In this document: positions 1 through 11,027 of the stretch, one piece after another
How positions within the stretch are numbered: the stretch's first letter is position 1
How the letters are laid out: each line of letters opens with the position of its first letter
IMG/VR virus record: IMGVR_UViG_3300044700_000691
Coordinates: 1 to 64,000 of that record
Length of the DNA stretch: 64,000 nucleotides
Direction: 5' to 3' (one strand)
Source: a virus
Position numbers and translations under genes: made by a program
Notes under the pieces: model-generated
What the model was told of the DNA's origin: nothing
Database searches by the model: none
The model's input: the letters and a program-made list of their open reading frames with translations, nothing else

Positions 1-20
1 GTTACTTGATTTTCTTGCAT
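1..20 (-). CDS. start of a leftward gene cut by the window edge
   Basis: An ATG reading leftward lies at 18-20 and gives M-Q-E-N-Q-V before the window ends. It sits about 30 bases downstream of an early-type promoter box (TATATTTA, 49-56). Too short to identify. Confidence 0.45.
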
Positions 21-48
21 ATTGTATATAGTTTAATTGATTATAAAG

Positions 49-70
49 TAAATATAAGTATTTTATTGAT
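49..70 (-). promoter_or_regulatory. early promoter for the edge gene
   Basis: The reverse strand carries TATATTTAC, the same -7-like box found before most genes in the first 11 kb, with an AT-rich spacer upstream. The hairpin half of the usual cassette is not present here. Confidence 0.55.
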
Positions 71-314
71 AAAATTGTATTTCGTCCACTATAAAAAAAT
101 GCTCCAAAATTAATACGTTTCTCAGATTGTTGAATTCCACAAAATCATCAAGATCATCAACATCCCATCCATCGGCCTCTCCTATTTCAGAAAAGAGTTT
201 TAATGACTTACTGATAATATCACCATATGACTCGGGAGACCAGGTATTTCCTATACATTCAACGACTTTTAACAGTCCAACCTCGTTGCTTTCGTTTTTT
301 ATTTGAAAAATCAT
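63..314 (-). CDS. small acidic early protein, unknown
   Basis: 83 residues, not recognised. The C-terminal half is rich in Asp/Glu (a W-D-V-D-D-L-D-D-F stretch near residues 50-58), with no membrane segment or cysteine motif. It is the only gene behind its own terminator-promoter cassette (341-405), so it is probably transcribed alone, early in infection. Small acidic early proteins of phages often bind host enzymes, but nothing in the sequence shows a partner. Confidence 0.7.
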   Translation of the reverse strand: MIFQIKNESNEVGLLKVVECIGNTWSPESYGDIISKSLKLFSEIGEADGWDVDDLDDFVEFNNLRNVLILEHFFIVDEIQFYQ

Positions 315-340
315 CTTTATTTGTTTTAATTAGTTATAAG

Positions 341-405
341 TAAATATAATACTTTTATTTGACAGTAAAAAACTTTTTGTTACTTATTTTCAAAAAGTTA
401 TTAAC
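341..405 (-). promoter_or_regulatory. early terminator-promoter cassette
   Basis: Read on the minus strand: TTAATAAC, a hairpin AACTTTTTG...CAAAAAGTT followed by TTTT, then CTGTCAAAT (-33-like) and TATATTTAC (-7-like, 341-348). It ends transcription from upstream and restarts it for the 83-residue gene. Near-identical copies recur at 1683 and 6928. Confidence 0.75.
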
Positions 406-423
406 ACTGTAACTAAGTATAAC

Positions 424-936
424 CTATACCCCGATTGGGGTAAAGGTGTCGAAAAAGTCTACTGATGTCATTGCGGCTTTTACTCTCTCCAAACAAACAG
501 GTCCCATTGCAGTATTGATACTTTCTGGATGGGTTAATGGCAAGCCACATTTGCAGCAGGTCCCATTATGAAATAGACCTACTCGGGTTCCCAAAATTGT
601 AGGGTCCTTAATAGCAGCTACCACCCAGCCTAGAGCCTGTGCCAGTCGCGAGCTTGGTGTAACTCCTTTGCCCAATACATAGGTTAAGGGCTCGGCAAAT
701 AGGGTACCTGCAAACTGATGACCGCTACGCCCGTCCGCCAATAGAGAGATATTGACGTAGTAAATAGGCAGCATCTTTTTGCGATCCTCCTTGTCACGTA
801 ACTGCTTGATACGCACGTTCATGTGGGTAAGTTGTTCATTATTGCGGAAGGTGATGTTGGCTCTACCTGCAAGCGCCAAGGTTGGTAGTGACTTTGGATT
901 AAGGTTTGGCCGAGCTGCTCTGATTTGATTTGTCAT
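424..936 (-). CDS. DUF6011-like zinc-binding protein
   Basis: 170 residues. Near residues 125-152 it has C-C-x-C-G-L-P-L-x-H-P-x-S then G-P-x-C, matching the DUF6011 pattern (C-x2-C-G-x-x-L-x-P-x-S ... G-x-G-P-x-C), a small four-ligand zinc module common in phage and actinobacterial proteins. The N-terminal part has no recognised domain. Its first codons (M-T-N-Q-I) and leader closely match those of the gene at 1240-1656, suggesting a copied 5' module. It has its own early cassette at 961. The function of DUF6011 is unknown. Confidence 0.7.
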   Translation of the reverse strand: MTNQIRAARPNLNPKSLPTLALAGRANITFRNNEQLTHMNVRIKQLRDKEDRKKMLPIYYVNISLLADGRSGHQFAGTLFAEPLTYVLGKGVTPSSRLAQALGWVVAAIKDPTILGTRVGLFHNGTCCKCGLPLTHPESINTAMGPVCLERVKAAMTSVDFFDTFTPIGV

Positions 937-960
937 ATGTAGTTAAGTTAATTGGTTAAG

Positions 961-1027
961 TAAATATAAGCAATTAGTTTGACAATAAAAAACTTTTATA
1001 CACTTATTTTCAAAAAGTTATTAACAA
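961..1027 (-). promoter_or_regulatory. early terminator-promoter cassette
   Basis: Minus strand: TTAATAACTTTTTG with an AAAAGTT partner and T run, TTGTCAAAC, then TATATTTAC (961-968), about 25 bases before the ATG of the DUF6011-like gene. The hairpin also serves as the 3' end of the short transcript predicted at 1028-1118. Confidence 0.75.
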
Positions 1028-1118
1028 TTTTCCTGTAATCCTAGCCAAATATAGAGGTAGGTCGGAGTATACCTCCCGCTTCCTTGTTCAGAACCGTCCC
1101 GTCTTATTGATTGATTGA
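1028..1118 (-). ncRNA. candidate small RNA or leader between two cassettes
   Basis: A promoter box (1124-1131) and a terminator hairpin (about 995-1026) bracket roughly 90 bases with no gene. The only ATG gives a five-codon frame (M-S-I-N-Q-stop, about 1102-1119). The RNA would contain mutually exclusive hairpins: GAGGUA...UACCUC, or GGAG-guaua-CUCC. Either a small RNA or a peptide-led attenuator is possible. Confidence 0.4.
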
Positions 1119-1123
1119 CATAG

Positions 1124-1165
1124 TAAATATAAACAAAAAACCCCAAACTAAAAAATCTGGGGTCA
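1124..1165 (-). promoter_or_regulatory. terminator and promoter before the candidate small RNA
   Basis: Minus strand: CCCCAGA-ttttttag-TTTGGGG followed by TTTTTT is a strong intrinsic terminator for the 138-residue gene at 1240. TATATTTAC (1124-1131) follows at once. No gene longer than five codons begins downstream before the next cassette. Confidence 0.65.
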
Positions 1166-1239
1166 ATTATTTTTCAAAAAGTTATTAACAAAAAAAGGGA
1201 GAACTTTCGCTCTCCCAATTCTATCAATTAACTACTAAA

Positions 1240-1656
1240 CTAAAACTCACTTCGTAATACATCGAGTCTGGATTTTTCGTCGACGGTTAGTCCACTTAAA
1301 CCTTTAACTGAAATCAATTCCAATAAGTCATCCATTGTTAAGTGTGATGTGGAACTTGTTGGTGATGAGGTTTCACCTAAACCAAAAACTGATTTACGAA
1401 TTTTTTCTGGAAGATTAATATCGAAATCTTCTAAGGTCGTAACCATAAATGGAACTTCATTTAACTCACTATCGTTTTTAAAACGATCCCGAATTTGAGT
1501 TGGTGTCAACTCACTTTTAAAAACTGAGATAATAATTCCAGGAAGTGGAAGAATTTTTGCGTCAGTTTTGTTTAAAATAATTTCAGACATTAATACTTCT
1601 GAAACTCTTGGGTCTGGTCCCATTCCGAAACGGGCGAACACGATTTGATTTGACAT
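1240..1656 (-). CDS. early protein, unknown
   Basis: 138 residues, not recognised. It starts M-S-N-Q-I, in nearly the same context as the DUF6011-like gene. A Ser/Thr-rich linker lies near residues 95-105, followed by a helical tail whose residues look like the end of a short helical-hairpin module. There is no membrane segment, signal peptide or cysteine cluster. It is monocistronic behind the cassette at 1683 and closed by the hairpin at 1141-1164. Confidence 0.7.
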   Translation of the reverse strand: MSNQIVFARFGMGPDPRVSEVLMSEIILNKTDAKILPLPGIIISVFKSELTPTQIRDRFKNDSELNEVPFMVTTLEDFDINLPEKIRKSVFGLGETSSPTSSTSHLTMDDLLELISVKGLSGLTVDEKSRLDVLRSEF

Positions 1657-1682
1657 ATGTTATTTTTTAATTGGTTATAGAG

Positions 1683-1748
1683 TAAATATAATACTTTTAT
1701 TTGACAGTAAAAAACTTTTTATTAATTATTTTCATAAAGTTATTAACA
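1683..1748 (-). promoter_or_regulatory. early terminator-promoter cassette
   Basis: Minus strand: AACTTTatgaaaataattaatAAAAAGTT plus TTTT, CTGTCAAAT, TATATTTAC (1683-1690). The hairpin loop differs from the copies at 341 and 961 while stem and promoter are kept. Drives the gene at 1240-1656. Confidence 0.75.
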
Positions 1749-1760
1749 ATTTGGGAGAGA

Positions 1761-1979
1761 CTAATCTTCTCTCTCCCATTCTTCAATGATCTCCGCACCA
1801 TAAAGTTCGCCACGACTTCCAAATCCAAATGTTCCTTCAAGAGTTGGACGACATAGGATTACTTTGAAGTTATATTCGTCTTCTTTGCAACACTCATTAA
1901 ACTCCGCTTGGGCTTTGTCTAGGTTTTCAGTTAAGAAATAGGAATCACCATCGTGATTAAGATTAATAATTACATACAT
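1761..1979 (-). CDS. small early protein, unknown
   Basis: 72 residues, not recognised. It begins M-Y-V-I-I-N-L-N and is acidic, with a beta-rich N-terminus, two adjacent cysteines in the middle (C-C-K-E-D) and a charged end. It is monocistronic behind the variant promoter at 2012. Confidence 0.65.
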   Translation of the reverse strand: MYVIINLNHDGDSYFLTENLDKAQAEFNECCKEDEYNFKVILCRPTLEGTFGFGSRGELYGAEIIEEWERED

Positions 1980-2011
1980 ACATTTAAGGGTTTAGTTGAT
2001 TAATATAAAGC

Positions 2012-2065
2012 TAATATAATAAAAATAATTGACAGTAAAAAATATTTGAGCACGTATTTTCAAAA
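2012..2065 (-). promoter_or_regulatory. early terminator-promoter cassette, TATATTAG variant
   Basis: Minus strand: a weak hairpin TTTTTTGA...TCAAATA plus T run, ACTGTCAAT, then TATATTAGC (2012-2019) in place of TATATTTAC. The same variant recurs at 2252. Confidence 0.65.
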
Positions 2066-2067
2066 AA

Positions 2068-2223
2068 TTATGGGACTATAAAATCCCATAGCTCTTCGCC
2101 CGTAGGCTTGCCATCTCGCAGGATCTCGTAATTTGGATCCATGCCGCTGGACATGACATCATCGATAAGTTCTTGTAGAGTTGAGAATTCTTTCTTGTAG
2201 TAGCTGCAATCTAGTGTCCACAT
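2068..2223 (-). CDS. 51-residue acidic early protein, unknown
   Basis: A short reading frame starts M-W-T-L-D-C-S-Y-Y-K and ends L-W-D-F-I-V-P. It fills the space between two cassettes, with its ATG about 30 bases after TATATTAGC, which supports it as a real gene. Acidic, no known motif. Confidence 0.65.
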   Translation of the reverse strand: MWTLDCSYYKKEFSTLQELIDDVMSSGMDPNYEILRDGKPTGEELWDFIVP

Positions 2224-2251
2224 ATCTTCTTTAGTTAATTGGTTATAGAGC

Positions 2252-2318
2252 TAATATAATAAAAAATCCTCAAAGAAAAAAATCTTTGAGGACTTATTTT
2301 AAGAAAAGTTATTAACAA
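2252..2318 (-). promoter_or_regulatory. early terminator-promoter cassette with strong hairpin
   Basis: Minus strand: TTAATAACTTTTC, then TCCTCAAAG-attttttt-CTTTGAGGA plus TTTTTT (terminator for the operon ending at 2322), then TATATTAGC (2252-2259). The hairpin takes the place of the CTGTCAAA element seen in other copies. Confidence 0.7.
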
Positions 2319-2321
2319 TTC

Positions 2322-2549
2322 TTATAGTTCCATAACCAACTGGGCTAGCGTGCTAGCAAGCCAGTCTTGAATCTCCTTAAAAGCAGAGTCTGCTTCTTCT
2401 TGAGTGCCAAACGAAATGGTCTTAATTTGACGAGTAGTTTCCGGAAATGTAATACGGATTACCGCATTATTCAATTGGATTTCTTCGCCACCACCTAGGC
2501 AATATATTACCTTTGTGTCTTCTCTGTGTAGTACTAGTGTCTTTACCAT
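2322..2549 (-). CDS. small early protein, unknown
   Basis: 75 residues, not recognised; a predicted beta-rich first half followed by an amphipathic helix. Its ATG overlaps the stop of the 119-residue gene (TAATG), indicating translational coupling. It is the last gene of an operon running from 4212 down to 2322. Confidence 0.65.
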   Translation of the reverse strand: MVKTLVLHREDTKVIYCLGGGEEIQLNNAVIRITFPETTRQIKTISFGTQEEADSAFKEIQDWLASTLAQLVMEL

Positions 2550-2908
2550 TACTTAGTTGTGTTAGTTGTATTGGACTTAGGTGTAGTCTTTGCAGCTGGC
2601 TTGCCAGCCTTCTGCGCAGGTTTTGTAGAGGGCTTAGACGTCTTTGCAGTTGTCTTAGTTGTCTCTTTAGCAGGCTTCGTTGAATCTTTCTTACGAGAGT
2701 TCTTCTCAGCTTTAGTAGGGGCAGGCTTTACAGTTTCTTCGGCTACGATTGGATAAGGTTTTTTAACCTCTTCAACTTTTGCTTTAGGAATCTCATTAAC
2801 AACAGTTGACCATTTCTCGAATGAATCTACTACTTGCTTGTCCTTAACTACTTCTTGTTCTGCTTTACCTAACAATCCTTTAAACCAGTTTGCGATCGCT
2901 TTAAACAT
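2549..2908 (-). CDS. histone H1-like Lys/Ala/Thr/Pro-rich protein
   Basis: 119 residues. The first 20 form an amphipathic helix (F-K-A-I-A-N-W-F-K-G-L-L-G-K). From about residue 60 to the end it is almost entirely Lys, Ala, Thr, Pro and Ser in K-P-A-K/T-T-K repeats, the composition of histone H1 tails and bacterial H1-like proteins. DNA or RNA binding is inferred from composition only. It is coupled to the next gene by a TAATG overlap. An inverted repeat (2973-3000) lies just upstream. Confidence 0.65.
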   Translation of the reverse strand: MFKAIANWFKGLLGKAEQEVVKDKQVVDSFEKWSTVVNEIPKAKVEEVKKPYPIVAEETVKPAPTKAEKNSRKKDSTKPAKETTKTTAKTSKPSTKPAQKAGKPAAKTTPKSNTTNTTK

Positions 2909-2972
2909 GAATATAAGTATTATTTTGATATCTTTTATTAGAATAAGCCAAAAGGTTTTAATACTAACCCAG

Positions 2973-3000
2973 AACAGGAGGTCGCTGGGACACTCCTGTT
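2973..3000. repeat. inverted repeat, 8-bp stem
   Basis: AACAGGAG (2973-2980) pairs with CTCCTGTT (2993-3000) around a 12-base loop that can pair further (GTC/GAC). It sits in the 124-base gap between the genes at 3033 and 2908 and has no T run, so it looks more like a leader or processing structure than a terminator. Confidence 0.5.
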
Positions 3001-3032
3001 GGATTATATTTCTTGATATAATAGAAACTATA

Positions 3033-3335
3033 TTACTGTGCTAAGAGTGCTGTCAACTCAATGAGAGCTTGCTCTGTAACAATATGGTTGTAACCACCAA
3101 TATGCCATTCAATCATTTCGTCTTTCCCAATTGGTCTATACTCTTTCCAATCATAAATTGTAAATATCTGTCCGTCTTCCAACTCGCACCTCCAGTCGAA
3201 GTTTACTTTATCCTCGCCAGTATTATCGCTATGCTGGGGCTCACCAATTGCTTGGGCTAATTGGTTATAAGAACATGTAATTACAGTGTCGTGGAACGAG
3301 GTTCCTGATCCAGGGTTAAAGCTTAGTTTTGCCAT
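3033..3335 (-). CDS. small early protein, unknown
   Basis: 100 residues. The middle has a run of aromatic and acidic positions (F-D-W-R-C-E-L, I-Y-D-W-K-E-Y) and an I-E-W-H-I-G-G motif before a C-terminal helix. Similar small Trp-rich proteins occur in phages, but I cannot name a family with confidence. Part of the 4212-2322 operon. Confidence 0.65.
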   Translation of the reverse strand: MAKLSFNPGSGTSFHDTVITCSYNQLAQAIGEPQHSDNTGEDKVNFDWRCELEDGQIFTIYDWKEYRPIGKDEMIEWHIGGYNHIVTEQALIELTALLAQ

Positions 3336-3356
3336 AGTTATATTTGATTTAATTGA

Positions 3357-3596
3357 TTACTTTAATTTCTTATACCATTCTAATATACCCACCATTTTTT
3401 GAATCTTTAGCTCTAGACCAAAGTTGCTTCCAACGAGACGACCTACTTTCATAGGATAATATCCCATCCCGTCTTTACCAGTTTCGTCCTTATCGATTTC
3501 TTTAATGGAGTTAGAGTGTTCCTCTAATTGAGTAATAAAGGAATCTATATCCTTCATTAATTCGTCATAGGCTCTCGCCTTTTCGTGTATCTTCAT
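3357..3596 (-). CDS. small helical early protein, unknown
   Basis: 79 residues, mostly predicted helix, with a charged first half (E-K-A-R-A-Y-D-E-L-M-K-D) and a short G-R-L-V-G-S-N-F stretch. No known motif. Lies between two other small genes of the operon that starts at 4212. Confidence 0.65.
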   Translation of the reverse strand: MKIHEKARAYDELMKDIDSFITQLEEHSNSIKEIDKDETGKDGMGYYPMKVGRLVGSNFGLELKIQKMVGILEWYKKLK

Positions 3597-3602
3597 ATCT
3601 TT

Positions 3603-3914
3603 TTATTTTAATAGTTTAGTTGGTATTCCTACATTATAGACTAAGTTTGCAAAGAATTTTAATCCTTTGTATGTTGTATAATCTGCGCGACCAATCGCAC
3701 CCATAAGATCGTTAGCAACAAAGCTCTGTACAAAGCTTCCACCTTCATATCCTACCTTCCACTTAGTGCAGAGAATCGAGGTTCCTATATCAATAATATG
3801 AACTCTTTCACTTTCCGATAGGTCGACGAGTTCTGTCCATTGAGCATTATTATCAAGGTATATTTCTACCTCTGCCCTTACGATGTTAATCTGTTCTTCT
3901 CTTGTCATTTTCAT
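3603..3914 (-). CDS. small early protein, unknown
   Basis: 103 residues, not recognised. Acidic N-terminal helix, central beta-rich part (I-L-C-T-K-W-K-V-G-Y) and a basic C-terminal helix ending K-L-L-K. No membrane segment. Start M-K-M-T; a second possible start two codons later would barely change the product. Confidence 0.65.
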   Translation of the reverse strand: MKMTREEQINIVRAEVEIYLDNNAQWTELVDLSESERVHIIDIGTSILCTKWKVGYEGGSFVQSFVANDLMGAIGRADYTTYKGLKFFANLVYNVGIPTKLLK

Positions 3915-3930
3915 ATTGATTTGTTTATTA

Positions 3931-4212
3931 TTAAATTGCCTCAGTCAAACTAAGTGGAGCGATTATAATGCCTAATTTACCAGCTTCTTTTAAATGTATT
4001 TTGGTGCGGTTGATTTTAACAACTTCGAACGTTTTACCCGCAGCTTTAGGATGGTTAACTCTAACCGACATCCCAATTATTAAAGAACGTTTTACCATAC
4101 GCGCTTCTTGTCTGCGACGTAATTTAATAATGTCAATAAGATCTGCATTTAACTTTGAAAGGTCAGCAGTAGAAAGGGTGTTGATTTGAGAAAGGATTTG
4201 TGAGTAGTTCAT
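3931..4212 (-). CDS. small protein with KOW/SH3-like second half
   Basis: 93 residues: an N-terminal helical hairpin (residues 1-45), then G-M-S-V-R-V-N-H-P-K-A-A-G-K-T-F-E-V-V-K-I-N-R, which has the spacing of a KOW/SH3-like beta barrel (G-x-x-V-x-V ... G-x-x-x-x-V-x-K-I). Small proteins of this layout are common in large phages; nucleic-acid or ribosome binding is a guess from the fold. First gene of the operon behind the cassette at 4240. Confidence 0.65.
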   Translation of the reverse strand: MNYSQILSQINTLSTADLSKLNADLIDIIKLRRRQEARMVKRSLIIGMSVRVNHPKAAGKTFEVVKINRTKIHLKEAGKLGIIIAPLSLTEAI

Positions 4213-4239
4213 ATTATATCTTTGTTAGTTTGTTATATG

Positions 4240-4306
4240 TAAATATAATAAAAAAACCTGAATTAAAAAAATCCAGGTTCATTTATTTTTAAAAAAGTTA
4301 TTAACA
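4240..4306 (-). promoter_or_regulatory. early terminator-promoter cassette with strong hairpin
   Basis: Minus strand: TTAATAACTTTTTT, AACCTGGA...TTCAGGTT plus TTTTTT (terminator of the sigma-factor operon), then TATATTTAC (4240-4247). Starts the operon 4212-2322. Confidence 0.75.
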
Positions 4307-4308
4307 TT

Positions 4309-4452
4309 TTATTCTTCAGGTTTTCCATCTGGTCCCCATCTCTCTTTTTGTTCTTCTTCAAGATTATCAAGTTCTTTATCAAGATCCTTTAACCATTGGT
4401 CTAGCTCTTGTTGCGCAGCTGAGTCTGCCCCTTCTTTTTCTTTTGGATCCAT
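4309..4452 (-). CDS. 47-residue charged protein, unknown
   Basis: A short frame starting M-D-P-K-E-K-E and ending D-G-K-P-E-E. Nearly all residues are Asp, Glu, Lys or Gln, forming one predicted helix. Its stop lies right at the terminator hairpin of the cassette at 4240-4306, which supports it as the last gene of the sigma operon. Confidence 0.6.
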   Translation of the reverse strand: MDPKEKEGADSAAQQELDQWLKDLDKELDNLEEEQKERWGPDGKPEE

Positions 4453-4461
4453 ACATCGAGA

Positions 4462-4626
4462 TTATTTTTTGCTTACTGCCCATATTTGTAAGAATGCCTT
4501 TAGCGGCAGATTCTTACGGTTTGCGAAGTGTTTAGCGGCGGCCAATCTGCCAGTTGTAAAAACTTTATCAACAGCCTCGGTTGATTTATCTAGTTTTGAG
4601 TAATAGTAATAGGTTCCTACTGACAT
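4462..4626 (-). CDS. 54-residue basic protein, unknown
   Basis: Starts M-S-V-G-T-Y-Y-Y-Y-S-K and continues as a Lys/Ala-rich helical part (G-R-L-A-A-A-K-H-F-A-N-R). It lies 9 bases from the next frame and 37 bases after the preceding one, filling an otherwise empty stretch. Not recognised. Confidence 0.6.
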   Translation of the reverse strand: MSVGTYYYYSKLDKSTEAVDKVFTTGRLAAAKHFANRKNLPLKAFLQIWAVSKK

Positions 4627-4663
4627 GATTCCTGGTTATATTATAGTATTATCTATTATTGTA

Positions 4664-4975
4664 CTATCGATTCGACTGCCGGGTTTCGCCTGTGCGACGA
4701 TTATATGCAAACTTTTCTCTTAGGCCAAGGTCTTCGTAAAGTAATATACCATTATTAAAAGAGAGAGGTTCTTGATTGGGTAATCCTAATCTATACATAC
4801 CTCTATTCTCGCCGGTTGCAGTAAAGAAATTAACCTCGCCTGTTTGAGACATGCAGCAGACCTCTTCTGAATCCCAACCTATAAGTTCATAGTTACCTAA
4901 TACAAACTGGGTTCGGGTCCCGTTGTCGTGCACCACGCTTGCAATACTACCCTGTTCTTCGACATAACTTATCAT
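4664..4975 (-). CDS. small beta-rich protein, unknown
   Basis: 103 residues, not recognised. Predicted mostly beta (S-I-A-S-V-V-H-D-N-G-T-R-T-Q-F-V-L-G), with a C-C pair near residue 40 and a C-terminal N-R-R-T-G-E-T-R. Overlaps the upstream gene by four bases (ATGA), so it is translationally coupled in the sigma operon. Confidence 0.7.
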   Translation of the reverse strand: MISYVEEQGSIASVVHDNGTRTQFVLGNYELIGWDSEEVCCMSQTGEVNFFTATGENRGMYRLGLPNQEPLSFNNGILLYEDLGLREKFAYNRRTGETRQSNR

Positions 4976-5373
4976 AGTTTTCCTCCTTTTAATTGTTTAG
5001 TAAAGTCTTCTGGCTTTATGAATCCATCTTGAAGCATGTCTTCGTAGGCTGCGCCTTTTGCAGACTGCTTGTACATTACCTCGCCTGATTCGCTAAGCGC
5101 TGCATCAATTAATCCAGCGTCTACCATTTCAGAAATAGTATTTCTTATTTGGGCTTTCGCTGCAGAGTCTATCACTGCACTGACCTGCTCTTCAGTCAAG
5201 TTAGGATTTACAAAAGGAACTATATCATCCTTCATATTTTCCAGTGCAGCATTAGTTATATCAAGTAAAAGAGTTTCTTGATCTAGATCCCCTGCCTTAT
5301 CATTCTCTATAATTACTTCTGTTACTTCTAGCGCATAGCCTTTAGCTATCCATTGTTTAATTTGATCTGACAT
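4972..5373 (-). CDS. helical acidic protein in the sigma operon, unknown
   Basis: 133 residues, almost all helix and acidic; no cysteine or membrane segment. It starts M-S-D-Q-I-K-Q, echoing the M-S/T-N-Q-I starts at 936 and 1656. It lies 16 bases downstream of the sigma factor gene and overlaps the next gene by four bases. An accessory role to the sigma factor is only a positional guess. Confidence 0.7.
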   Translation of the reverse strand: MSDQIKQWIAKGYALEVTEVIIENDKAGDLDQETLLLDITNAALENMKDDIVPFVNPNLTEEQVSAVIDSAAKAQIRNTISEMVDAGLIDAALSESGEVMYKQSAKGAAYEDMLQDGFIKPEDFTKQLKGGKL

Positions 5374-5389
5374 TTTCTTTAGGATTTAA

Positions 5390-6106
5390 TTAGTTAAAAG
5401 TTTTACGTAATTTGTGACGAGCTAATCGAAGAGTTTGATTTACTTTAGAAACTTCCATTCCTAATTCATCAGCAGTTTCTTTAGCAGAGCGAGCTTCGCC
5501 TCTGTCGATTCCATAGAAAGTCTCGATTACCTTGCGATCATGGTCATTTAATTTGCTTAACACTGCGGCAACTTGTTGCTCAACGCTTTGTTCTTCAAAT
5601 GGATCCACGAATTCTGCACGAAGAATAAGATCGCCTAAGGTATTAGAACCATCTTCGCCGATTGGCTTGTCTAATCTAATATTAGTTAAGTTGATATCTT
5701 CGCCAGCCATTTTGCGCTTGTAGATATCGTATTCCTGATTCATAGGTAATCGTACAGTACGACCATACTCGCCTAGTGCAGTATTTAACTTCTTACGAAT
5801 CCAGAACTGTGCATAGGTAATAAACTTAACATCTTTTTCTGGAGTAAAACGCTTTGCAGCTTCGATAAGACCGCAGTTAGCTTCCATAATAAGATCGTCG
5901 ACAGGCAAGCCTAGTCCAATAAACTTATTCGCTAAGCTGACAGCGAACTTAAGGTTAGCATTTACTAGGGAGTGCATTGCAGCCTCGTCGCCGGCCTGAA
6001 TCCGGATAGCTAATTCTTTTTCCGCAGCCTTGCTTAAAGGCTTCGCCAGTTTGTCAATACTTTTAAAGTATGCTGGTAAGTTGGTTGATGCTTCAAATTT
6101 TGCCAT
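5390..6106 (-). CDS. phage RNA polymerase sigma factor, RpoD-like (sigma-70 family)
   Basis: 238 residues, shorter than host RpoD because the N-terminal extension is missing. Region 1.2/2: an N-L-K-F-A-V-S-L-A-N-K-F core near residue 50, then D-D-L-I-M-E-A-N-C-G-L-I-E-A-A-K-R-F and F-I-T-Y-A-Q-F-W-I-R (region 2.3/2.4, promoter melting and -10 recognition), closely resembling Bacteroidetes RpoD. R-T-V-R-L-P-M-N follows (region 3). The last 30 residues form the region 4.2 helix-turn-helix (A-K-E-T-A-D-E-L-G-M). It would redirect host polymerase. The gene has its own early promoter and heads an operon of five genes. Which class it reads (middle or late) cannot be told from sequence. Confidence 0.95.
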   Translation of the reverse strand: MAKFEASTNLPAYFKSIDKLAKPLSKAAEKELAIRIQAGDEAAMHSLVNANLKFAVSLANKFIGLGLPVDDLIMEANCGLIEAAKRFTPEKDVKFITYAQFWIRKKLNTALGEYGRTVRLPMNQEYDIYKRKMAGEDINLTNIRLDKPIGEDGSNTLGDLILRAEFVDPFEEQSVEQQVAAVLSKLNDHDRKVIETFYGIDRGEARSAKETADELGMEVSKVNQTLRLARHKLRKTFN

Positions 6107-6138
6107 AGTTATTTTTTTAGATTGATTGATTTATAATT

Positions 6139-6195
6139 TAAATATAATACTTTTATTTGACATAGTACAATGTTTTTTAATAAAGTTATTAACAT
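6139..6195 (-). promoter_or_regulatory. early promoter of the sigma operon
   Basis: Minus strand: TTAATAACTTTATT, ACTATGTCAAAT (-33-like), TATATTTAAA (6139-6146). The stem of the usual hairpin is weaker than in other copies. Confidence 0.7.
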
Positions 6196-6225
6196 TGTCT
6201 ACTAGGGAGTGGCCCTAGCCGGGGT

Positions 6226-6618
6226 CTAGCCAAAGATTATATCTTCAAAGAACACGCTTTGTAGTACAACATCCGCAGTGCATGCATCGTCGTTTTCGTT
6301 TATCATATCTAGGAGATGGCTGGCTGGGGTCAAGGCCACGCGTTCATGTACATCCGCTAGGGTTACAGATCTAGTGTATTCGCCTTCACAGCCAATATCT
6401 ACTAGGGTAATCTTGTTACCATCACGTAAGATCTGCATTAAGACATCTTCAAAACAAGGGCTAGCACCGCCTGCTTTTAGTTTTGCAGCTGCGGTTTGGT
6501 ATTCCTTGTCGTCGAAATCCAGTTCTAAATCATAACCGCTAGTTACGTAGCCTAAGCCGTTACACATTGCGTTAAAGAATATTTCTTCCGCTTCATTTTT
6601 TTCTAAGAGTATTTTCAT
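6226..6618 (-). CDS. conserved-looking phage protein, unknown
   Basis: 130 residues, acidic. Distinctive blocks: A-E-E-I-F-F-N-A-M-C-N-G-L-G-Y near the start, C-F-E-D-V-L-M-Q-I-L-R-D-G in the middle, L-A-D-V-H-E-R-V and a final A-D-V-V-L-Q-S-V-F-F-E-D-I-I-F-G. The strong block structure suggests a conserved soluble phage family, but I cannot name it. Monocistronic behind the cassette at 6638. Confidence 0.7.
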   Translation of the reverse strand: MKILLEKNEAEEIFFNAMCNGLGYVTSGYDLELDFDDKEYQTAAAKLKAGGASPCFEDVLMQILRDGNKITLVDIGCEGEYTRSVTLADVHERVALTPASHLLDMINENDDACTADVVLQSVFFEDIIFG

Positions 6619-6637
6619 GTTTGTTTATTTTATAAAG

Positions 6638-6693
6638 TAAATATAACTAAAATTATTGACAGTAAAAAATCTTTTTTCAAAAGTTATTAATAA
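6638..6693 (-). promoter_or_regulatory. early terminator-promoter cassette
   Basis: Minus strand: AACTTTTG-AAAAAAGATT with T run, ACTGTCAAT, TATATTTAC (6638-6645). Drives the 130-residue gene. Confidence 0.7.
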
Positions 6694-6900
6694 TTAGTCT
6701 TGTTCTAATATCTCAGTTACTTCAAATGTAACCATGTCAAAGGTTTCATCAATTGTTTCTTTATCATAGCCGGACTCTACTAAATGTTCGCGCGTACACT
6801 TCTCAGCATCGTCCGTTGTTTCGGCACGGATGTGGAAGATAATTGGACTTTCAAAATTTCCATCAAAGTCTGTAACTGATGTACAAAATAATCTTTTCAT
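6694..6900 (-). CDS. small early protein, unknown
   Basis: 68 residues with an alternating beta-alpha pattern (F-C-T-S-V-T-D-F ... H-I-R-A-E-T-T-D-D-A-E-K) that looks like a single ferredoxin-like or small DUF fold. A-E-T-x-D-D-A-E is a common arrangement in tiny phage proteins of unknown role. Monocistronic. Confidence 0.65.
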   Translation of the reverse strand: MKRLFCTSVTDFDGNFESPIIFHIRAETTDDAEKCTREHLVESGYDKETIDETFDMVTFEVTEILEQD

Positions 6901-6927
6901 AATCTATAGGGTTTAATTGGTTATAAG

Positions 6928-6994
6928 TAAATATAATACTTTTATTTGACAGTAAAAAACTTTTAGGCACTTATTTTCCTAAAAGTTATTAACA
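6928..6994 (-). promoter_or_regulatory. early terminator-promoter cassette
   Basis: Minus strand: AACTTTTAGGAAAATAAGTGCCTAAAAGTT plus TTTT, CTGTCAAAT, TATATTTAC (6928-6935). The stem has changed on both sides compared with the copy at 341 (TTTTAGG/CCTAAAA versus TTTTTG/CAAAAA), so pairing is kept. Confidence 0.8.
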
Positions 6995-6996
6995 AT

Positions 6997-7176
6997 TTAC
7001 AGGATCTGCATCCCTACGTTTAATAATTCGTTTTTTAGGTTTCCATGCATTTTTTCAGTGCCACTAATTGAGAGAATTATCGTTGGCCCCTGTAGGGAAA
7101 CTATGTAATCCTGTTGGGTAAATCCATAAAGCTTTAGGAAAGCCTCTGCCTTTTCAATAATTTGCTTCTTTTTCAT
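6997..7176 (-). CDS. small basic early protein, unknown
   Basis: 59 residues from the ATG that begins M-K-K-K-Q-I. A longer frame to 7212 would need a TTG start and would run through the promoter box at 7200-7207, so the shorter start is preferred. Helix then beta strands; not recognised. Confidence 0.65.
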   Translation of the reverse strand: MKKKQIIEKAEAFLKLYGFTQQDYIVSLQGPTIILSISGTEKMHGNLKNELLNVGMQIL

Positions 7177-7199
7177 GTTATTAGGTTTTAAGTTATAAG

Positions 7200-7245
7200 T
7201 AAATATAACCAATTAAGTTGACACTAAAAAACTTTGTATCACTTT
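7200..7245 (-). promoter_or_regulatory. early promoter
   Basis: Minus strand: AGTGTCAACTTAATTGG then TATATTTAC (7200-7207), 24 bases before the ATG at 7176. The hairpin is reduced (AAAAAAAGTG...). Confidence 0.65.
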
Positions 7246-7427
7246 TTTTCTTTCATTAAATAAATCGAAAGGAATGGGGTGCCAAAGATTATAACATAAA
7301 AACAAATAGCAACTAGGATTGGCGACGAGGGTTTGGCTGGAATTTCCATTGGACCATCAGTTGCGCACATAAGAATAAAGACTAATAACCAGCTAAAGAA
7401 TAAAAGGGTTCCGATAAATTGTTTCAT
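7239..7427 (-). CDS. two-helix small membrane protein
   Basis: 62 residues with two hydrophobic segments (about 4-22 and 36-57) separated by a short Pro/Ser-rich loop, and a basic C-terminal tail (M-K-E-K-K). It would sit in the host inner membrane. Size and layout are compatible with a holin or a superinfection-immunity protein, but its early position argues against a holin. Confidence 0.65.
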   Translation of the reverse strand: MKQFIGTLLFFSWLLVFILMCATDGPMEIPAKPSSPILVAICFYVIIFGTPFLSIYLMKEKK

Positions 7428-7456
7428 AGTAAAAGGTTTAATTATTAATTGATATG

Positions 7457-7505
7457 TAAATATAACTAAAATACTTGAAAGTAAAAAATTTATTTTAGGG
7501 AATCT
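7457..7505 (-). promoter_or_regulatory. early promoter of the small membrane protein
   Basis: Minus strand: TTTACTTTCAAGTATTTTAG then TATATTTAC (7457-7464). The element CTTTCAAGT replaces CTGTCAAAT. Confidence 0.6.
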
Positions 7506-7515
7506 TTCCTAAAAG

Positions 7516-7545
7516 AAAAAGGCCCTATTACTAGGACCCTCTCTC
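7516..7545 (-). terminator. intrinsic terminator after the Hsp20 gene
   Basis: Minus strand: GGTCCTA-gtaa-TAGGGCC followed by TTTTTCTTTT, 25 bases after the Hsp20 stop. Confidence 0.75.
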
Positions 7546-7569
7546 ATTATTAACCAATCAATCAAACTA

Positions 7570-7959
7570 TTATTTCTTCTCTCTACTAATAACTATCTTA
7601 CCAACTTTAGAATCTCTTTTGGCAATAGCGACATCAACAGTTAGGATTCCGTCGATAAGCTTGGCTGTAATAGATTCTCTACGGCTAGGCAGACCAAACT
7701 GGAATTCCTGCGCAGGAATCCAACTGGCTTTCTTAGCCTTAACAACTAGATAATCATTAACAATATCGATATCAATTTCTTCTTCAGTACGGCCAGCAAT
7801 AATCATTCGATACTGTGCAAGTTCGTCTGTAATTTTGACATCATAGTTGTCTGACTGATGTGTAGTTGACATTAGTGTAGACCACATTGGGTCGCGTAAT
7901 CCTTTTAGGATTTCTTGAGTTAGGCTCGGTTCTCCCGAGAAAAAAGTACGTAATAACAT
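7570..7959 (-). CDS. small heat-shock protein, Hsp20 / alpha-crystallin family
   Basis: 129 residues. The alpha-crystallin domain spans about 37-125, starting at D-N-Y-D-V-K-I-T-D and ending with the hallmark A-x-L-x-D-G-I-L-T-V-D-V block. An I-V-I motif near the C-terminus resembles the I-x-I oligomerisation motif. Such proteins hold unfolding proteins without ATP; Hsp20 genes are known in many T4-like and marine phages, where help in virion assembly is suspected. The leader contains a large inverted repeat (8016-8062) right where transcription should start. Confidence 0.92.
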   Translation of the reverse strand: MLLRTFFSGEPSLTQEILKGLRDPMWSTLMSTTHQSDNYDVKITDELAQYRMIIAGRTEEEIDIDIVNDYLVVKAKKASWIPAQEFQFGLPSRRESITAKLIDGILTVDVAIAKRDSKVGKIVISREKK

Positions 7960-8015
7960 GTTACATATAATTATTTTAATATTAATAGATCAAATTTGGT
8001 GCCAAATACTATTTT

Positions 8016-8062
8016 ATGACAAAGTGTCCTACCAACTCAAGGTCAATAGGACAATGTGTCAT
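8016..8062 (-). promoter_or_regulatory. hairpin in the Hsp20 leader
   Basis: ATGACA-aag-TGTCCTA (8016-8031) is the exact inverse of TAGGACA-atg-TGTCAT (8047-8062), giving two stems around a 3x3 internal loop and a 15-base loop. The early box at 8065-8072 places the transcript start at the 5' arm. A second small palindrome, ATTTGG-tg-CCAAAT, lies nearer the ATG. Confidence 0.6.
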
Positions 8063-8064
8063 GT

Positions 8065-8090
8065 TAAATATAGTATTACTTATATTTAGA
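8065..8090 (-). promoter_or_regulatory. early promoter of Hsp20, inside the previous gene's end
   Basis: Minus strand TATATTTAA (8065-8072) with an AT-rich upstream part that overlaps the last codons of the 79-residue gene. No hairpin cassette here. Confidence 0.55.
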
Positions 8091-8315
8091 TAGGATTTCT
8101 CTATGGACATGGTTAGCCCAACTATTAAAATCCGCCTGCTCCTTTGGTTCAACCGTTCGCATAACACGAGGACCATTACCATAGCTAAGATCTAAGGTTT
8201 CGCCAACCGGCTCAGTTATCATGTTCCTACGAATTAACATCTCTATTCCGCTTAGGAATCTTATGATACCTGTTTTTACCTTTTTCACTGCCGATTGTTG
8301 TTTATTATTTGTCAT
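8076..8315 (-). CDS. small basic early protein, unknown
   Basis: 79 residues with a basic N-terminus (K-K-V-K-T-G-I-I-R) followed by an amphipathic helix and a soluble tail. Not recognised. Its ATG is one base from the stop of the preceding 58-residue gene, so the two are coupled. Confidence 0.65.
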   Translation of the reverse strand: MTNNKQQSAVKKVKTGIIRFLSGIEMLIRRNMITEPVGETLDLSYGNGPRVMRTVEPKEQADFNSWANHVHREILSKYK

Positions 8316-8316
8316 A

Positions 8317-8493
8317 TTATTGAACTTTAAGTTTAGTTAATAATTCTTTCTTAATCATTTCTGGCCAGGCTTTCGCAAATAGCGGGGTCTTGCCTTGATC
8401 TTCGATTGCTTGAATCTCCTTTTGGACTCCTTCGACCCATAATTCTAATCCAGCCCTTAGTGCTTCTTTTTCTACGTTAGTTAGTTTTGCCAT
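8317..8493 (-). CDS. 58-residue helical protein, unknown
   Basis: Short frame starting M-A-K-L-T-N-V-E-K-E and ending L-T-K-L-K-V-Q; two predicted helices joined at G-K-T-P-L-F. It fits tightly between its neighbours in the 8645-8076 operon. Confidence 0.65.
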   Translation of the reverse strand: MAKLTNVEKEALRAGLELWVEGVQKEIQAIEDQGKTPLFAKAWPEMIKKELLTKLKVQ

Positions 8494-8498
8494 AACCT

Positions 8499-8645
8499 TT
8501 ATTTTTTATTTACTTCGTAATTATTGACTGCATCAATTACTATTTTACAAATGGTATCAAGTACTTCGTCATCATGTCCATCTAAGTAAGTAATTAGGTT
8601 AAACTGTAAAATTTCTTTTAACTCTCTTGTTGTTTTAATTTCCAT
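8499..8645 (-). CDS. 48-residue acidic protein, unknown
   Basis: Short frame starting M-E-I-K-T-T-R-E-L-K and ending N-Y-E-V-N-K-K. First gene after the cassette at 8674 and five bases from the next gene. Not recognised. Confidence 0.65.
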   Translation of the reverse strand: MEIKTTRELKEILQFNLITYLDGHDDEVLDTICKIVIDAVNNYEVNKK

Positions 8646-8673
8646 ATCCTTTTTGTTTTTATTGATTATACTG

Positions 8674-8722
8674 TAAATATAATACTTTTATTTGACAGTA
8701 AAAAATTTTTAATAGATTATTT
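8674..8722 (-). promoter_or_regulatory. early promoter
   Basis: Minus strand: AAATTTTTTACTGTCAAATAAAAG then TATATTTAC (8674-8681). Starts the operon 8645-8076. Confidence 0.7.
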
Positions 8723-8851
8723 TTAATCCATCCATTTACCATCATGTATCAAATGCCAAAACCTATGCTTTAATACTTCGATTATTAGGGAACCTAAGCT
8801 ATCGCACTTGTAAACTCCAGCACCTTTTACTATAAGTTTGAATTTAGACAT
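8723..8851 (-). CDS. 42-residue protein, unknown
   Basis: Short frame starting M-S-K-F-K-L-I-V-K-G and ending H-D-G-K-W-M-D. Basic, beta-rich, one cysteine. It fills the gap between the 94-residue gene and the next promoter. Confidence 0.6.
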   Translation of the reverse strand: MSKFKLIVKGAGVYKCDSLGSLIIEVLKHRFWHLIHDGKWMD

Positions 8852-8873
8852 TATATTTGTTGTTTAATAATTA

Positions 8874-9158
8874 TTACTTCATTTTAATTAAGGGTACGAT
8901 CGAGACCTGGCAGTGCTGGGCTTCGGGATTGTATAATGCTTCTTCTTCAGTATTCCACTTGCTCCTATCCCATAGGAGAACTGGCCTGCTCGCCGCTTCT
9001 CGACATAGGGTTTTGTATTCAATATTTAGGGTCTTTGCATCCAGTTGGACCTTAGTAAATTGGTGTACCCCTTTCAGTGTGGTTAGCACGCTGCGACCGG
9101 TTAGGATATCTGAATTCCAGATCTCGACTAACCATAGCCTGTCTTTCTTTGTCTTCAT
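8874..9158 (-). CDS. small early protein, unknown
   Basis: 94 residues, beta-rich first third (L-W-L-V-E-I-W-N-S-D), a possible helix with C-R-E-A-A-S-R, and a Val/Ile-rich end. Not recognised. An overlapping plus-strand frame (8857-9198) is the shadow: only the minus frame fits the operon. Confidence 0.65.
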   Translation of the reverse strand: MKTKKDRLWLVEIWNSDILTGRSVLTTLKGVHQFTKVQLDAKTLNIEYKTLCREAASRPVLLWDRSKWNTEEEALYNPEAQHCQVSIVPLIKMK

Positions 9159-9159
9159 A

Positions 9160-9369
9160 TTATCTTATACTCCCTTTAGTATCACTAGATTCTCTTGAGA
9201 ATCCAGCAATCGCGTATAGTATTCCCATTGCTCCGCTTAACATAAAGAATCCCATTTCATTTAATGTTCCTGCAAATGGGATAACCTTTCCGACATGACC
9301 GCTCGCAGTTAAGAACGCAATTGATAAGAATAAGACTGAACCCAATAAAAATTTAATAGATGCTTTCAT
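9160..9369 (-). CDS. two-helix small membrane protein
   Basis: 69 residues with hydrophobic segments at about 5-22 and 39-57 and a charged soluble tail (S-R-E-S-S-D-T-K). First gene behind the cassette at 9399. Function unknown. Confidence 0.65.
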   Translation of the reverse strand: MKASIKFLLGSVLFLSIAFLTASGHVGKVIPFAGTLNEMGFFMLSGAMGILYAIAGFSRESSDTKGSIR

Positions 9370-9398
9370 AATAGATTGTTTAGGTTATTAATGATATG

Positions 9399-9452
9399 TA
9401 AATATAAACAATTAAGTTGACACTAAAAAACTTTTTATTACTTATTTTTCAA
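9399..9452 (-). promoter_or_regulatory. early promoter
   Basis: Minus strand: AAAAAGTTTTTTAGTGTCAACTTAATTGTT then TATATTTAC (9399-9406). Same AGTGTCAACTTAATTG variant as at 7200 and 10493. Confidence 0.7.
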
Positions 9453-9454
9453 AA

Positions 9455-9480
9455 AAAAACCTGCCTTACGGGGCAGGTTC
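9455..9480 (-). terminator. intrinsic terminator
   Basis: Minus strand: AACCTGCC-ccgtaa-GGCAGGTT followed by seven or more T. Ends the operon 10470-9502. Confidence 0.85.
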
Positions 9481-9501
9481 AAGGCTTAAGAGATTCTCTA
9501 C

Positions 9502-9810
9502 TTAGACAAGTTGAGAATTCTTGATACGACCGCGGGTCATATCGAAAGCTTTGTTTACAATCTTTGCATTTTGGTACAAGCCACCGATAACTTCACTTGT
9601 GTAGTTAGGCGAGAATCCAGTACGTGCAGCTACTTTCACTAAGTCGCCTTGACGTAGACGAGAGTTAATAACTGCTAATTTTGCTGTGTAAGGCAATTTG
9701 CGATAGGTCATGCCTATCTTGGTTTGGTTTGCTGTGTTTGACATTGTAGTCGGTTTGGTTTTAAATTTTGCAGTAAATGCTGCAAATGCTTTCTTTATAG
9801 ACATAGACAT
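9502..9810 (-). CDS. basic protein with possible helix-turn-helix
   Basis: 102 residues, strongly basic. Residues 52-80 (Q-G-D-L-V-K-V-A-A-R-T-G-F-S-P-N-Y-T-S) have the spacing of a helix-turn-helix (A-A-x-x-x-G-x-S ... V), preceded by a Lys-rich, disordered-looking N-terminus. DNA binding is inferred. A middle-type box (GTATAATA, about 9828-9835) lies just upstream. Confidence 0.65.
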   Translation of the reverse strand: MSMSIKKAFAAFTAKFKTKPTTMSNTANQTKIGMTYRKLPYTAKLAVINSRLRQGDLVKVAARTGFSPNYTSEVIGGLYQNAKIVNKAFDMTRGRIKNSQLV

Positions 9811-9834
9811 TTTATATTGTTTAGATTATTATAC

Positions 9835-10062
9835 CTACCCCTTTGGCTTATTGGCATCTGCGATAGCACTCCTAATTGCACCAGTTCCCATTACTGTCTT
9901 GCCGATAACCATCCAGCCCATTGCGGAGAGCCAGGTAATTTCGTGTAGACCTTGATCAGGGCCAATGCTATTCCATATTACCTTAAGAAAAAAGGCTTCG
10001 AGCATAAAGCTACAGACACCGACAAATAGTTTGTAAATTGCTTCTTTTGTTTTAGTTGACAT
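9835..10062 (-). CDS. small membrane protein
   Basis: 75 residues, two hydrophobic stretches (about 10-30 and 44-62), short charged tail. Follows the 35-residue membrane protein by one base. Unknown. Confidence 0.65.
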   Translation of the reverse strand: MSTKTKEAIYKLFVGVCSFMLEAFFLKVIWNSIGPDQGLHEITWLSAMGWMVIGKTVMGTGAIRSAIADANKPKG

Positions 10063-10063
10063 A

Positions 10064-10171
10064 TTATATCCAGTTTAAGATTTTAAATAATACTTTCGCG
10101 ACTATAAAGAACACGATTATCTTTAGGGCTAATATACCCAATTTCTCGATAGTTGACAAGAGGCTGGTCAT
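10064..10171 (-). CDS. 35-residue single-pass membrane protein
   Basis: Short frame starting M-T-S-L-L-S-T-I-E-K-L, then a continuous hydrophobic helix (L-A-L-K-I-I-V-F-F-I-V-A). It overlaps the gene upstream by four bases (ATGA) and is one base from the next, so the spacing strongly supports translation. Confidence 0.65.
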   Translation of the reverse strand: MTSLLSTIEKLGILALKIIVFFIVAKVLFKILNWI

Positions 10172-10470
10172 ATGCTGCTGTTGAAAAATAGCTTTACCTC
10201 TTTACGACCTCTAGTATTACCAAGCTTTACCTCGCTCTCGGTAATTTCTATTTCAATTACCCTGACCCCATTTGCAAAATGGTGCTTATCAAATCTGAGT
10301 CTCCCTTCGTTGGTAAATCTCTCGACAACTTCGCCACCTCTTAGCCTGCTAAACTCGGCCTCGCTAAGGGTTAACTCTTGCCCAATACTCCAGTGGACAG
10401 GCTTTACACTACGACCTGACTCTTCGCGAATAGGTTCGGTAACGGTTAATTTAAATTCTTTGTGTATCAT
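10168..10470 (-). CDS. small early protein, unknown
   Basis: 100 residues, charged, predicted beta-rich with an H-W-S-I-G-Q-E-L-T-L-S-E-A-E segment. No recognised domain. First gene of the operon 10470-9502. Confidence 0.65.
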   Translation of the reverse strand: MIHKEFKLTVTEPIREESGRSVKPVHWSIGQELTLSEAEFSRLRGGEVVERFTNEGRLRFDKHHFANGVRVIEIEITESEVKLGNTRGRKEVKLFFNSSI

Positions 10471-10492
10471 CGTATATCATTTAGTTATAGAG

Positions 10493-10540
10493 TAAATATA
10501 ACCAATTAACTTGACACCCAAAAATAAAGTTATTAACAAT
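10493..10540 (-). promoter_or_regulatory. early promoter
   Basis: Minus strand: TTAATAACTTTATT, GGTGTCAAGTTAATTGGT, TATATTTAC (10493-10500). The hairpin is reduced. Confidence 0.65.
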
Positions 10541-10718
10541 TATCCCAGCTAGTCGGGCTATCTTCAGCTGTTACCTGCCAAAACTGGCCAAGGTTATCGC
10601 GCACAGTTAGCACGTCTGGTGCTACTACTTCTACAATACCCGTGATAGGGGCTTCTAGCTCTTCGAATTTCTGTAACCATTGGATAGTATCTCCCGGTTT
10701 AAAGTCTTGTATCTGCAT
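10533..10718 (-). CDS. small beta-barrel-like protein, unknown
   Basis: 61 residues: F-K-P-G-D-T-I-Q-W at the start and V-E-V-V-A-P-D-V-L-T-V-R-D at the centre, the pattern of a small SH3/KOW-like barrel. Lies four bases after the 101-residue gene. Confidence 0.6.
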   Translation of the reverse strand: MQIQDFKPGDTIQWLQKFEELEAPITGIVEVVAPDVLTVRDNLGQFWQVTAEDSPTSWDNC

Positions 10719-10721
10719 ATG

Positions 10722-11027
10722 TTATAGTTTGTTTATAGCTGCTTCGCGTTTAACCCGATAGAATAACTCAGCAGCCCATTCATATTCTTCCCTAGCAACC
10801 GCCACGTCGAGCGCAGTAATACAGGCATGGTATAGAGCATGTAATAAGTATTCAAGATACTCTGCACTCCAATCCTCTTCGCCTGCTGTTTTACCTAGGT
10901 CTTCGACTATCTTGCCTAGACAGTGGCGTATCGCCTGCTGGTCTCGACCTACTCCTTCCAGCCCAGTAAGGATTCGGTCTTTAATTAGTGTAGATAAGTA
11001 TTCAGGCATCTCCTTTTGGTTTAGCAT
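10722..11027 (-). CDS. helical protein, unknown
   Basis: 101 residues, nearly all helical. The C-terminal R-E-E-Y-E-W-A-A-E-L resembles the UvrB/C-like helical hairpin also seen in three small genes at 26176, 37495 and 59006. First leftward gene after the GC-rich island; a GTATAAT box (about 11034-11041) lies just upstream. Confidence 0.65.
   Translation of the reverse strand: MLNQKEMPEYLSTLIKDRILTGLEGVGRDQQAIRHCLGKIVEDLGKTAGEEDWSAEYLEYLLHALYHACITALDVAVAREEYEWAAELFYRVKREAAINKL

Follow-up and report, generated by a model that had tools for sequence, protein, structure and literature searches.

A repeated probable promoter cassette with an upstream site at apparent whole-turn spacing and an optional terminator-like hairpin in a giant virus

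Near one end of a giant-virus genome, small genes are separated by spacers that closely resemble one another. Do these spacers end transcription, start it, or both? We addressed this question in the window, the first 64 kb of the 216,815-bp virus record IMGVR_UViG_3300044700_000691 (hereafter G000), where the original prediction had placed a minus-strand cassette composed of an upstream box, an AT-rich hairpin and a promoter, which was proposed to insulate each small operon and restart transcription. The genome carries T4-type genes (terminase, baseplate wedge), and its sequence suggests a giant virus infecting Bacteroidota-type bacteria: a relative with the same array sits in a Bacteroidetes-binned contig, and the second sigma gene of G000 has Sig70_bacteroi1 as its best NCBIfam match. 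A near-identity search of a phage collection with this DNA gave no match. Relatives were collected through the 238-amino-acid sigma gene of the array (22 loci in public viral contigs) and through a search with the core pattern of the cassette (45 stretches), giving a pooled set of 183 non-redundant cassette copies, 27 of them with a GC-rich hairpin (GC forms) and 156 others. Judging from these sequences, we consider it probable that the cassettes constitute a class of early promoters that drives a block of small phage genes, with an upstream site phased to the DNA helix and, in some copies, a terminator built in.

The core and its copies

Fifteen minus-strand spacers within 340-10537 share one ungapped core consisting of a T-run, TGTCAA, ten variable bases and TATATTTAC. 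With the -7 box (TATATTTAC) beginning at position 0, the register is fixed, with the T-run at -24 to -19, TGTCAA (T.TCAA) at -16 to -11, 10 bp and then TATATTT[AG]. A position matrix finds exactly 15 copies, at the place and on the strand originally described, with the -7 box beginning at 348, 968, 1131, 1690, 2018, 2258, 4247, 6146, 6645, 6935, 7207, 7464, 8681, 9406 and 10500. On both strands of the 216,815 bp it finds no further site above 6 bits, and none on a reversed-sequence control; as the matrix was trained on the same 15 copies, the absence elsewhere is the informative part. A loose core pattern gave 14 minus-strand and no plus-strand matches over the whole genome (control, 0), and TTAATAACTTT occurs ten times on the minus strand in 394-10536 and twice in the rest of the genome. 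The copies are given below, with the offset of the upstream box to the -7 box in bp, the z-score of the fold against shuffled sequences where a hairpin was scored, and the open reading frame (ORF) that follows.

340-405, minus strand: cassette 348, box at offset 56, weak AT-rich hairpin (z -0.9), T-run, TGTCAA and -7 box, then ORF 63-314
960-1025, minus strand: cassette 968, box at 56, no stable hairpin, then ORF 424-936 (DUF6011)
1123-1189, minus strand: cassette 1131, box at 57, fused GC hairpin 1139-1164, separate terminator-like hairpin 1197-1216 just upstream, before a conserved non-coding stretch
1682-1747, minus strand: cassette 1690, box at 56, no stable hairpin, then ORF 1240-1656
2010-2046, minus strand: cassette 2018, core only, no box, terminator-like hairpin 2069-2090 upstream, then ORF 1761-1979
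2250-2316, minus strand: cassette 2258, box at 57, fused GC hairpin 2264-2295, then ORF 2068-2223
4239-4305, minus strand: cassette 4247, box at 57, fused GC hairpin 4254-4280, then ORF 3931-4212
6138-6193, minus strand: cassette 6146, box at 46, broken T-run (TTGTAC), TGTCAA and -7 box intact, then the sigma gene
6637-6691, minus strand: cassette 6645, variant box ATTAATAAC at 45, no hairpin, then ORF 6226-6618
6927-6993, minus strand: cassette 6935, box at 57, the sole convincing AT-rich hairpin (10 bp, z -2.3), then ORF 6694-6900
7199-7235, minus strand: cassette 7207, core only, then ORF 6997-7176
7456-7492, minus strand: cassette 7464, core only, separate hairpin with T-rich tail at about 7550-7520, then ORF 7239-7427
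8673-8709, minus strand: cassette 8681, core only, then ORF 8499-8645
9398-9434, minus strand: cassette 9406, core only, strong separate terminator-like hairpin 9457-9480, then ORF 9160-9369
10492-10537, minus strand: cassette 10500, short form, box at 36, no hairpin, then ORF 10168-10470
48-84, minus strand: weaker -7 box (TATATTTAC at 56) without the full core, its gene running past the contig end

The -7 box reads TATATT[TA][AG] in all 15 window copies, none of which has TATATTTG; over all relatives its last base is G in about one third of copies. TTTT at -24 to -21 is nearly invariant, TTG replacing TTT (-24 to -22) in 12 of the 183 copies, and an identical 33-nt core is present four times in G000. 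The distance from the -7 box to the ATG is 27-40 nt in 14 of the 15 window copies (cassette 1131 being the exception), and 86% of the 183 copies sit just upstream of a start codon, at a median of 35 nt. Within the block, 16 spacers of more than 40 bp separate successive minus-strand ORFs; 13 of them hold the core (one of them twice) and three do not; each remaining gap listed in that count holds one more core. Because the register is fixed, the sites lie just before start codons and the -7 box broadly fits the Bacteroidota sigma-A type, the sequence provides good support for a function of the core as promoter, and to that extent for the part of the original proposal that had transcription restarting here.

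The same array is found in phage contigs of 250-270 kb, where it forms a single cluster of about 8 kb on one strand. In near-genome-length contigs we counted 9 sites in about 8 kb of 253 kb, 12 in 8 kb of 271 kb and 12 in 8 kb of 252 kb, and a reversed control pattern gave zero matches in these relatives. One further relative, L087 (CAIWBA010000291.1, 254 kb), is binned as an uncultured Bacteroidetes; over the stretch read, its genes, including the same sigma, identify it as a jumbo phage of the same group. Core matches in L085 and L086 were set aside as they look like chance or weak sites. Gene order around the cassettes differs among relatives, and 16 of the 32 ORFs of the cassette region have no homolog in the relatives' loci.

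Outside the array, other promoter motifs prevail. The T4-late-like ATAAATA[AT] precedes 28 of the 84 spaced genes outside 1-11000 (1.3 expected; 10 antisense, partly from divergent spacers), TTAGTATA precedes six of the 84 genes (0.4 expected), and the cassette -7 box precedes only two. It is mainly because the promoter vocabularies segregate in this way that we call the cassette block early, which is plausible on sequence grounds.

Upstream box, apparent whole-turn spacing and hairpins

The upstream box has the consensus TTGTTAATAACTT over 12-13 bp; two related contigs carry GTTCGTAAC or GTTCGCAAC instead. GTTnnnAAC occurs 105 times in the upstream parts of the 183 copies versus 3.7 in shuffles. 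The box was seen in 90 of the 183 copies, and in the window the GTTnnnAAC/TTAATAAC box is missing from five copies, 2018, 7207, 7464, 8681 and 9406. Its offset to the -7 box falls into classes of 36 (n=14), 46 (n=26), 55-58 (n=45) and 67-69 (n=5) with nothing between, the class means being 36.0, 46.0, 56.9 and 67.4 and the slope 10.507 bp per step. When the set is reduced to 54 copies that are less than 70% alike, these classes persist, and in ten promoter sets, each in front of homologous genes, the class changes between members. With the four classes taken as four founder events, random offsets fit a 10.5-bp period equally well with p ~0.0004 in a crude uniform simulation.

Such discrete distances in 10.5-bp steps imply that the box is probably a DNA site read on one face of the helix. 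A DNA site is favored over an RNA element by the equal box distances in GC and non-GC forms, whose inner sequences are unrelated, and by the terminator-like hairpin directly upstream of the box at 1131. Arithmetic from TAnnTTTG at -12 to -5 would place the box centres at about -45, -55, -66 and -76 from the start site, positions used by activators and alpha C-terminal domains elsewhere among bacteria (PMC2988021). Two observations weigh against this picture: the copies share descent, probably with recombination, so that the spacing classes may represent some four founder lengths, and half of the copies have no box, which is therefore not essential. Since related copies are not independent and the 10.5-bp period was suggested by the same data, whole-turn spacing is strongly suggested rather than proven.

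As the original prediction had it, three window copies carry a GC-richer hairpin, and in each (1139-1164, z -2.8; 2264-2295, z -5.3; 4254-4280, z -3.0) it replaces TGTCAA; this form accounts for 27 of the 183 copies (~15%). As MAFFT alignment shifts the pairing register between sequences, covariation was tested by swapping arms. For 25 GC hairpins with 23 distinct stems, own arms fold at -15.2 kcal/mol versus -7.7 kcal/mol for swapped ones, and 3% of swaps are as good. The geometry is fixed, with the T-run as the loop, the 3' arm in the TGTCAA slot and a T-tract reaching the -7 box. Position -14 remains T in 26 of the 27 GC forms and in 155 of the 156 other copies; its partner in the GC forms is A (21 cases) or G (5 cases). 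Position -16 remains T in 21 of the 27 GC forms. The GC stem, short loop, T-tract and compensatory changes are those of a putative intrinsic terminator, and because the sequence obeys hairpin and promoter constraints at once, the GC form is best understood as a terminator superimposed on a functional promoter.

Competing explanations and the putative regulators

The AT-rich hairpin fared differently. If every spacer were a terminator followed by a promoter, with this hairpin as the terminator, one could point to 6935 and 348, whose AT-rich stems of 9-10 bp show mutual compensatory differences and are followed by T4-T6, as well as to the three GC hairpins and four separate terminator-like hairpins lying upstream (~1216-1197, 2090-2069, 7550-7520 and 9480-9457). 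The difference between those two stems had been noted originally and is real, but of the copies with the AT-rich design only 6935 folds better than shuffles, while 968, 1690, 2018, 6645, 8681 and 10500 give nothing and 6146 folds into a different hairpin (z -2.7), which lacks a T-tract. In relatives, own arms outdo swapped ones marginally in offset class 56-58 (p 0.03) and not at all in class 46 (p 0.99), half of the members fold at 0 kcal/mol, and 22 of the 156 non-GC copies reach -4 kcal/mol; the covariation expected from the earlier claim is thus strong for the GC hairpin and fails for the AT-rich one, which is rejected as a conserved RNA. About six window copies (968, 1690, 6645, 7207, 8681, 10500) have no credible terminator, so general insulation of the units is not supported, though the spacers with GC or separate hairpins could provide it locally. 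A terminator in every spacer therefore seems to us very improbable. Somewhat less improbable, although still unlikely, is that the box serves recombination, replication or a nuclease, with distances that were inherited from founders and carried around by recombination. By eye, TGTTAATAA looks like a DnaA box, and the repeated identical cores and varying gene order would suit such a role, but the close fit of four classes to 10.5-bp steps, the same distances kept in GC and AT forms, and the position of the site on one strand, always upstream of the promoter, argue against it.

Which sigma factor reads the core is a separate matter. We regard as a serious possibility, if not the favored one, that the phage 238-amino-acid sigma rather than host sigma-A does so; the array would then be a delayed-early or middle regulon in which the sigma gene feeds back positively on itself. 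In both G000 and the relatives this gene is part of the array and has a cassette in front of it, and the core departs from the plain host form in that a T-run stands where TTG would be, TATATTTA replaces TAnnTTTG and T.TCAA is added. Yet the sigma is present in only 10 of 31 cassette- or sigma-bearing records, and the many cassette-bearing records that show none are mostly fragments; the distant sigma-bearing records G007 and G031 have no core match, and the cassette of the sigma gene itself has the weakest core, which is odd for autoactivation alone. The 238-amino-acid protein is a possible user of the cassette promoters. Two genes of the array could encode regulators:

5390-6106, minus strand: sigma-70 family protein of 238 amino acids, under cassette 6146; Pfam regions 2 and 4 above cut-off, region 1.2 just below
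9502-9810, minus strand: protein of 102 amino acids with a predicted helix-turn-helix in a Cro/XRE-like arrangement, conserved in all main relatives

The genome contains two further sigma-like genes, one of 214 amino acids (the gene matching Sig70_bacteroi1) and one of 139 amino acids, the size of T4 gp55, at 119641-120060. A second, larger sigma-70 gene adjoins the array in some relatives (L087:764-1714, ~316 amino acids; G002:71922-72740; G004:129352-129714). In the model of the 102-amino-acid protein, residues 41-92 are predicted with high confidence as four helices; the profile weakly resembles Cro/XRE-type domains, and structure comparison reached Z up to 4.3, mostly with helix-turn-helix proteins, which for so small a domain indicates a common arrangement only. 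Its candidacy as the box-binding protein is speculative.

Returning to the promoter class that we favor, each cassette would act as a strong promoter of that one class for small takeover-type genes, probably early. The core would be read by the host sigma-A-type holoenzyme or the phage 238-amino-acid sigma, the T-run substituting for the TTG at -33, and the box would be bound by a protein, either an activator of the phage or a factor next to the alpha C-terminal domains, which would have to face the polymerase and could hence use the box only at whole helical turns. Where a hairpin is present, the transcript of the upstream gene would end just before the new start, giving insulation there and only there, so that a stretch of about 45 bp might end one transcript and start the next. 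The near-identical repeated cores may also offer short homologies for gene shuffling; among the gene-order differences between relatives, no junction was traced to a cassette. The most specific version, a phage-wide promoter code in which the box stands only at whole turns (36, 46, 57, 67 bp), is bound by an activator such as the 102-amino-acid protein and is combined with a terminator superimposable on the promoter, we put forward as tentative and rather doubtful.

Several smaller features accompany the cassettes. A conserved non-coding stretch of about 70-100 nt (GACGGGACGGTTC...GAACAAGGAAGCGGGAGGTATACTCCGACCT) lies at 1027-1119 on the minus strand between cassettes 1131 and 968, and likewise between two cassettes in the relatives L013, L022, L023, L024, L078, L010, L012, L017 and L087. 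Its core could pair as a hairpin AGGU-AKACUCCG-ACCU, and it is possibly a phage small RNA. No Rfam family reached its gathering score in the window, this stretch included, and sub-threshold matches at 900-1300 were discarded as AT-rich noise. The string CTCCCTAGTA occurs only twice in the genome, at 6209 (minus strand) in the spacer before the cassette of the sigma gene and at 5972 (minus strand) inside that gene, and recurs just upstream of cassettes in relatives. The array also encodes an HSP20-like small heat-shock protein (7570-7959, minus strand), a weak match near the Pfam cut-off.

Significance and comparison with known systems

The transcription programs of large Bacteroidota phages are almost unmapped, and the cassette offers a sequence-defined promoter class present in many uncultivated phage genomes, whose core lets one call a gene block under common control, separate from the genes with the T4-like late motif. 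Being compact, the fused terminator-promoter lends itself to reporter testing, and the series of spacings amounts to a natural experiment on helical phasing. In the papers searched, no description of this cassette was found.

The flavobacterial sigma-A promoter has a TAnnTTTG box at -12 to -5 (PMC9723704). The -7 box TATATTT[AG] fits TAnnTTT, and some copies have TTG at the -33 position; the cassettes differ in mostly having TTTA(C) rather than TTTG and a T-run rather than TTG, in adding T.TCAA within the spacer, and in their fixed spacing. T4 early and middle promoters have, respectively, an UP element with the alpha C-terminal domain at -40 to -60 and a MotA box 12 +/- 1 bp from the -10 (PMC2988021). 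Similarly, A/T-rich tracts lie upstream of the cassette core (by eye, the A-rich GAAAATAA and CAAAAAG), and T.TCAA, 10 bp from the -7 box, occupies about the place of the MotA box. The sequence is unrelated, however; no MotA or AsiA relative was identified, and the core is otherwise of Bacteroidota type.

T4-type phages reportedly possess promoter-early stem-loop (PeSL) cassettes (Arbiol et al. 2010 and Comeau et al. 2014, as cited in PMC4503421). The array resembles them in its repeated intergenic cassettes, which would join a probably early promoter to, in a subset of copies, a predicted stem-loop terminator, and in its small poorly conserved genes and variable gene order, many copies (15 in 10 kb) lying among small variable genes. 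It differs in host group and promoter type, in its stem-loop, which only a minority of copies possess and which is then situated within the promoter spacer and not next to the promoter, and in its upstream site at apparent whole helical turns. A helical-turn site of this kind is not known from PeSL work. We did not file the array as a PeSL member because most copies have no stem-loop and no gene-order junction was traced to a cassette; by analogy, it appears comparable to the T4 PeSL cassettes, the nearest known kind.

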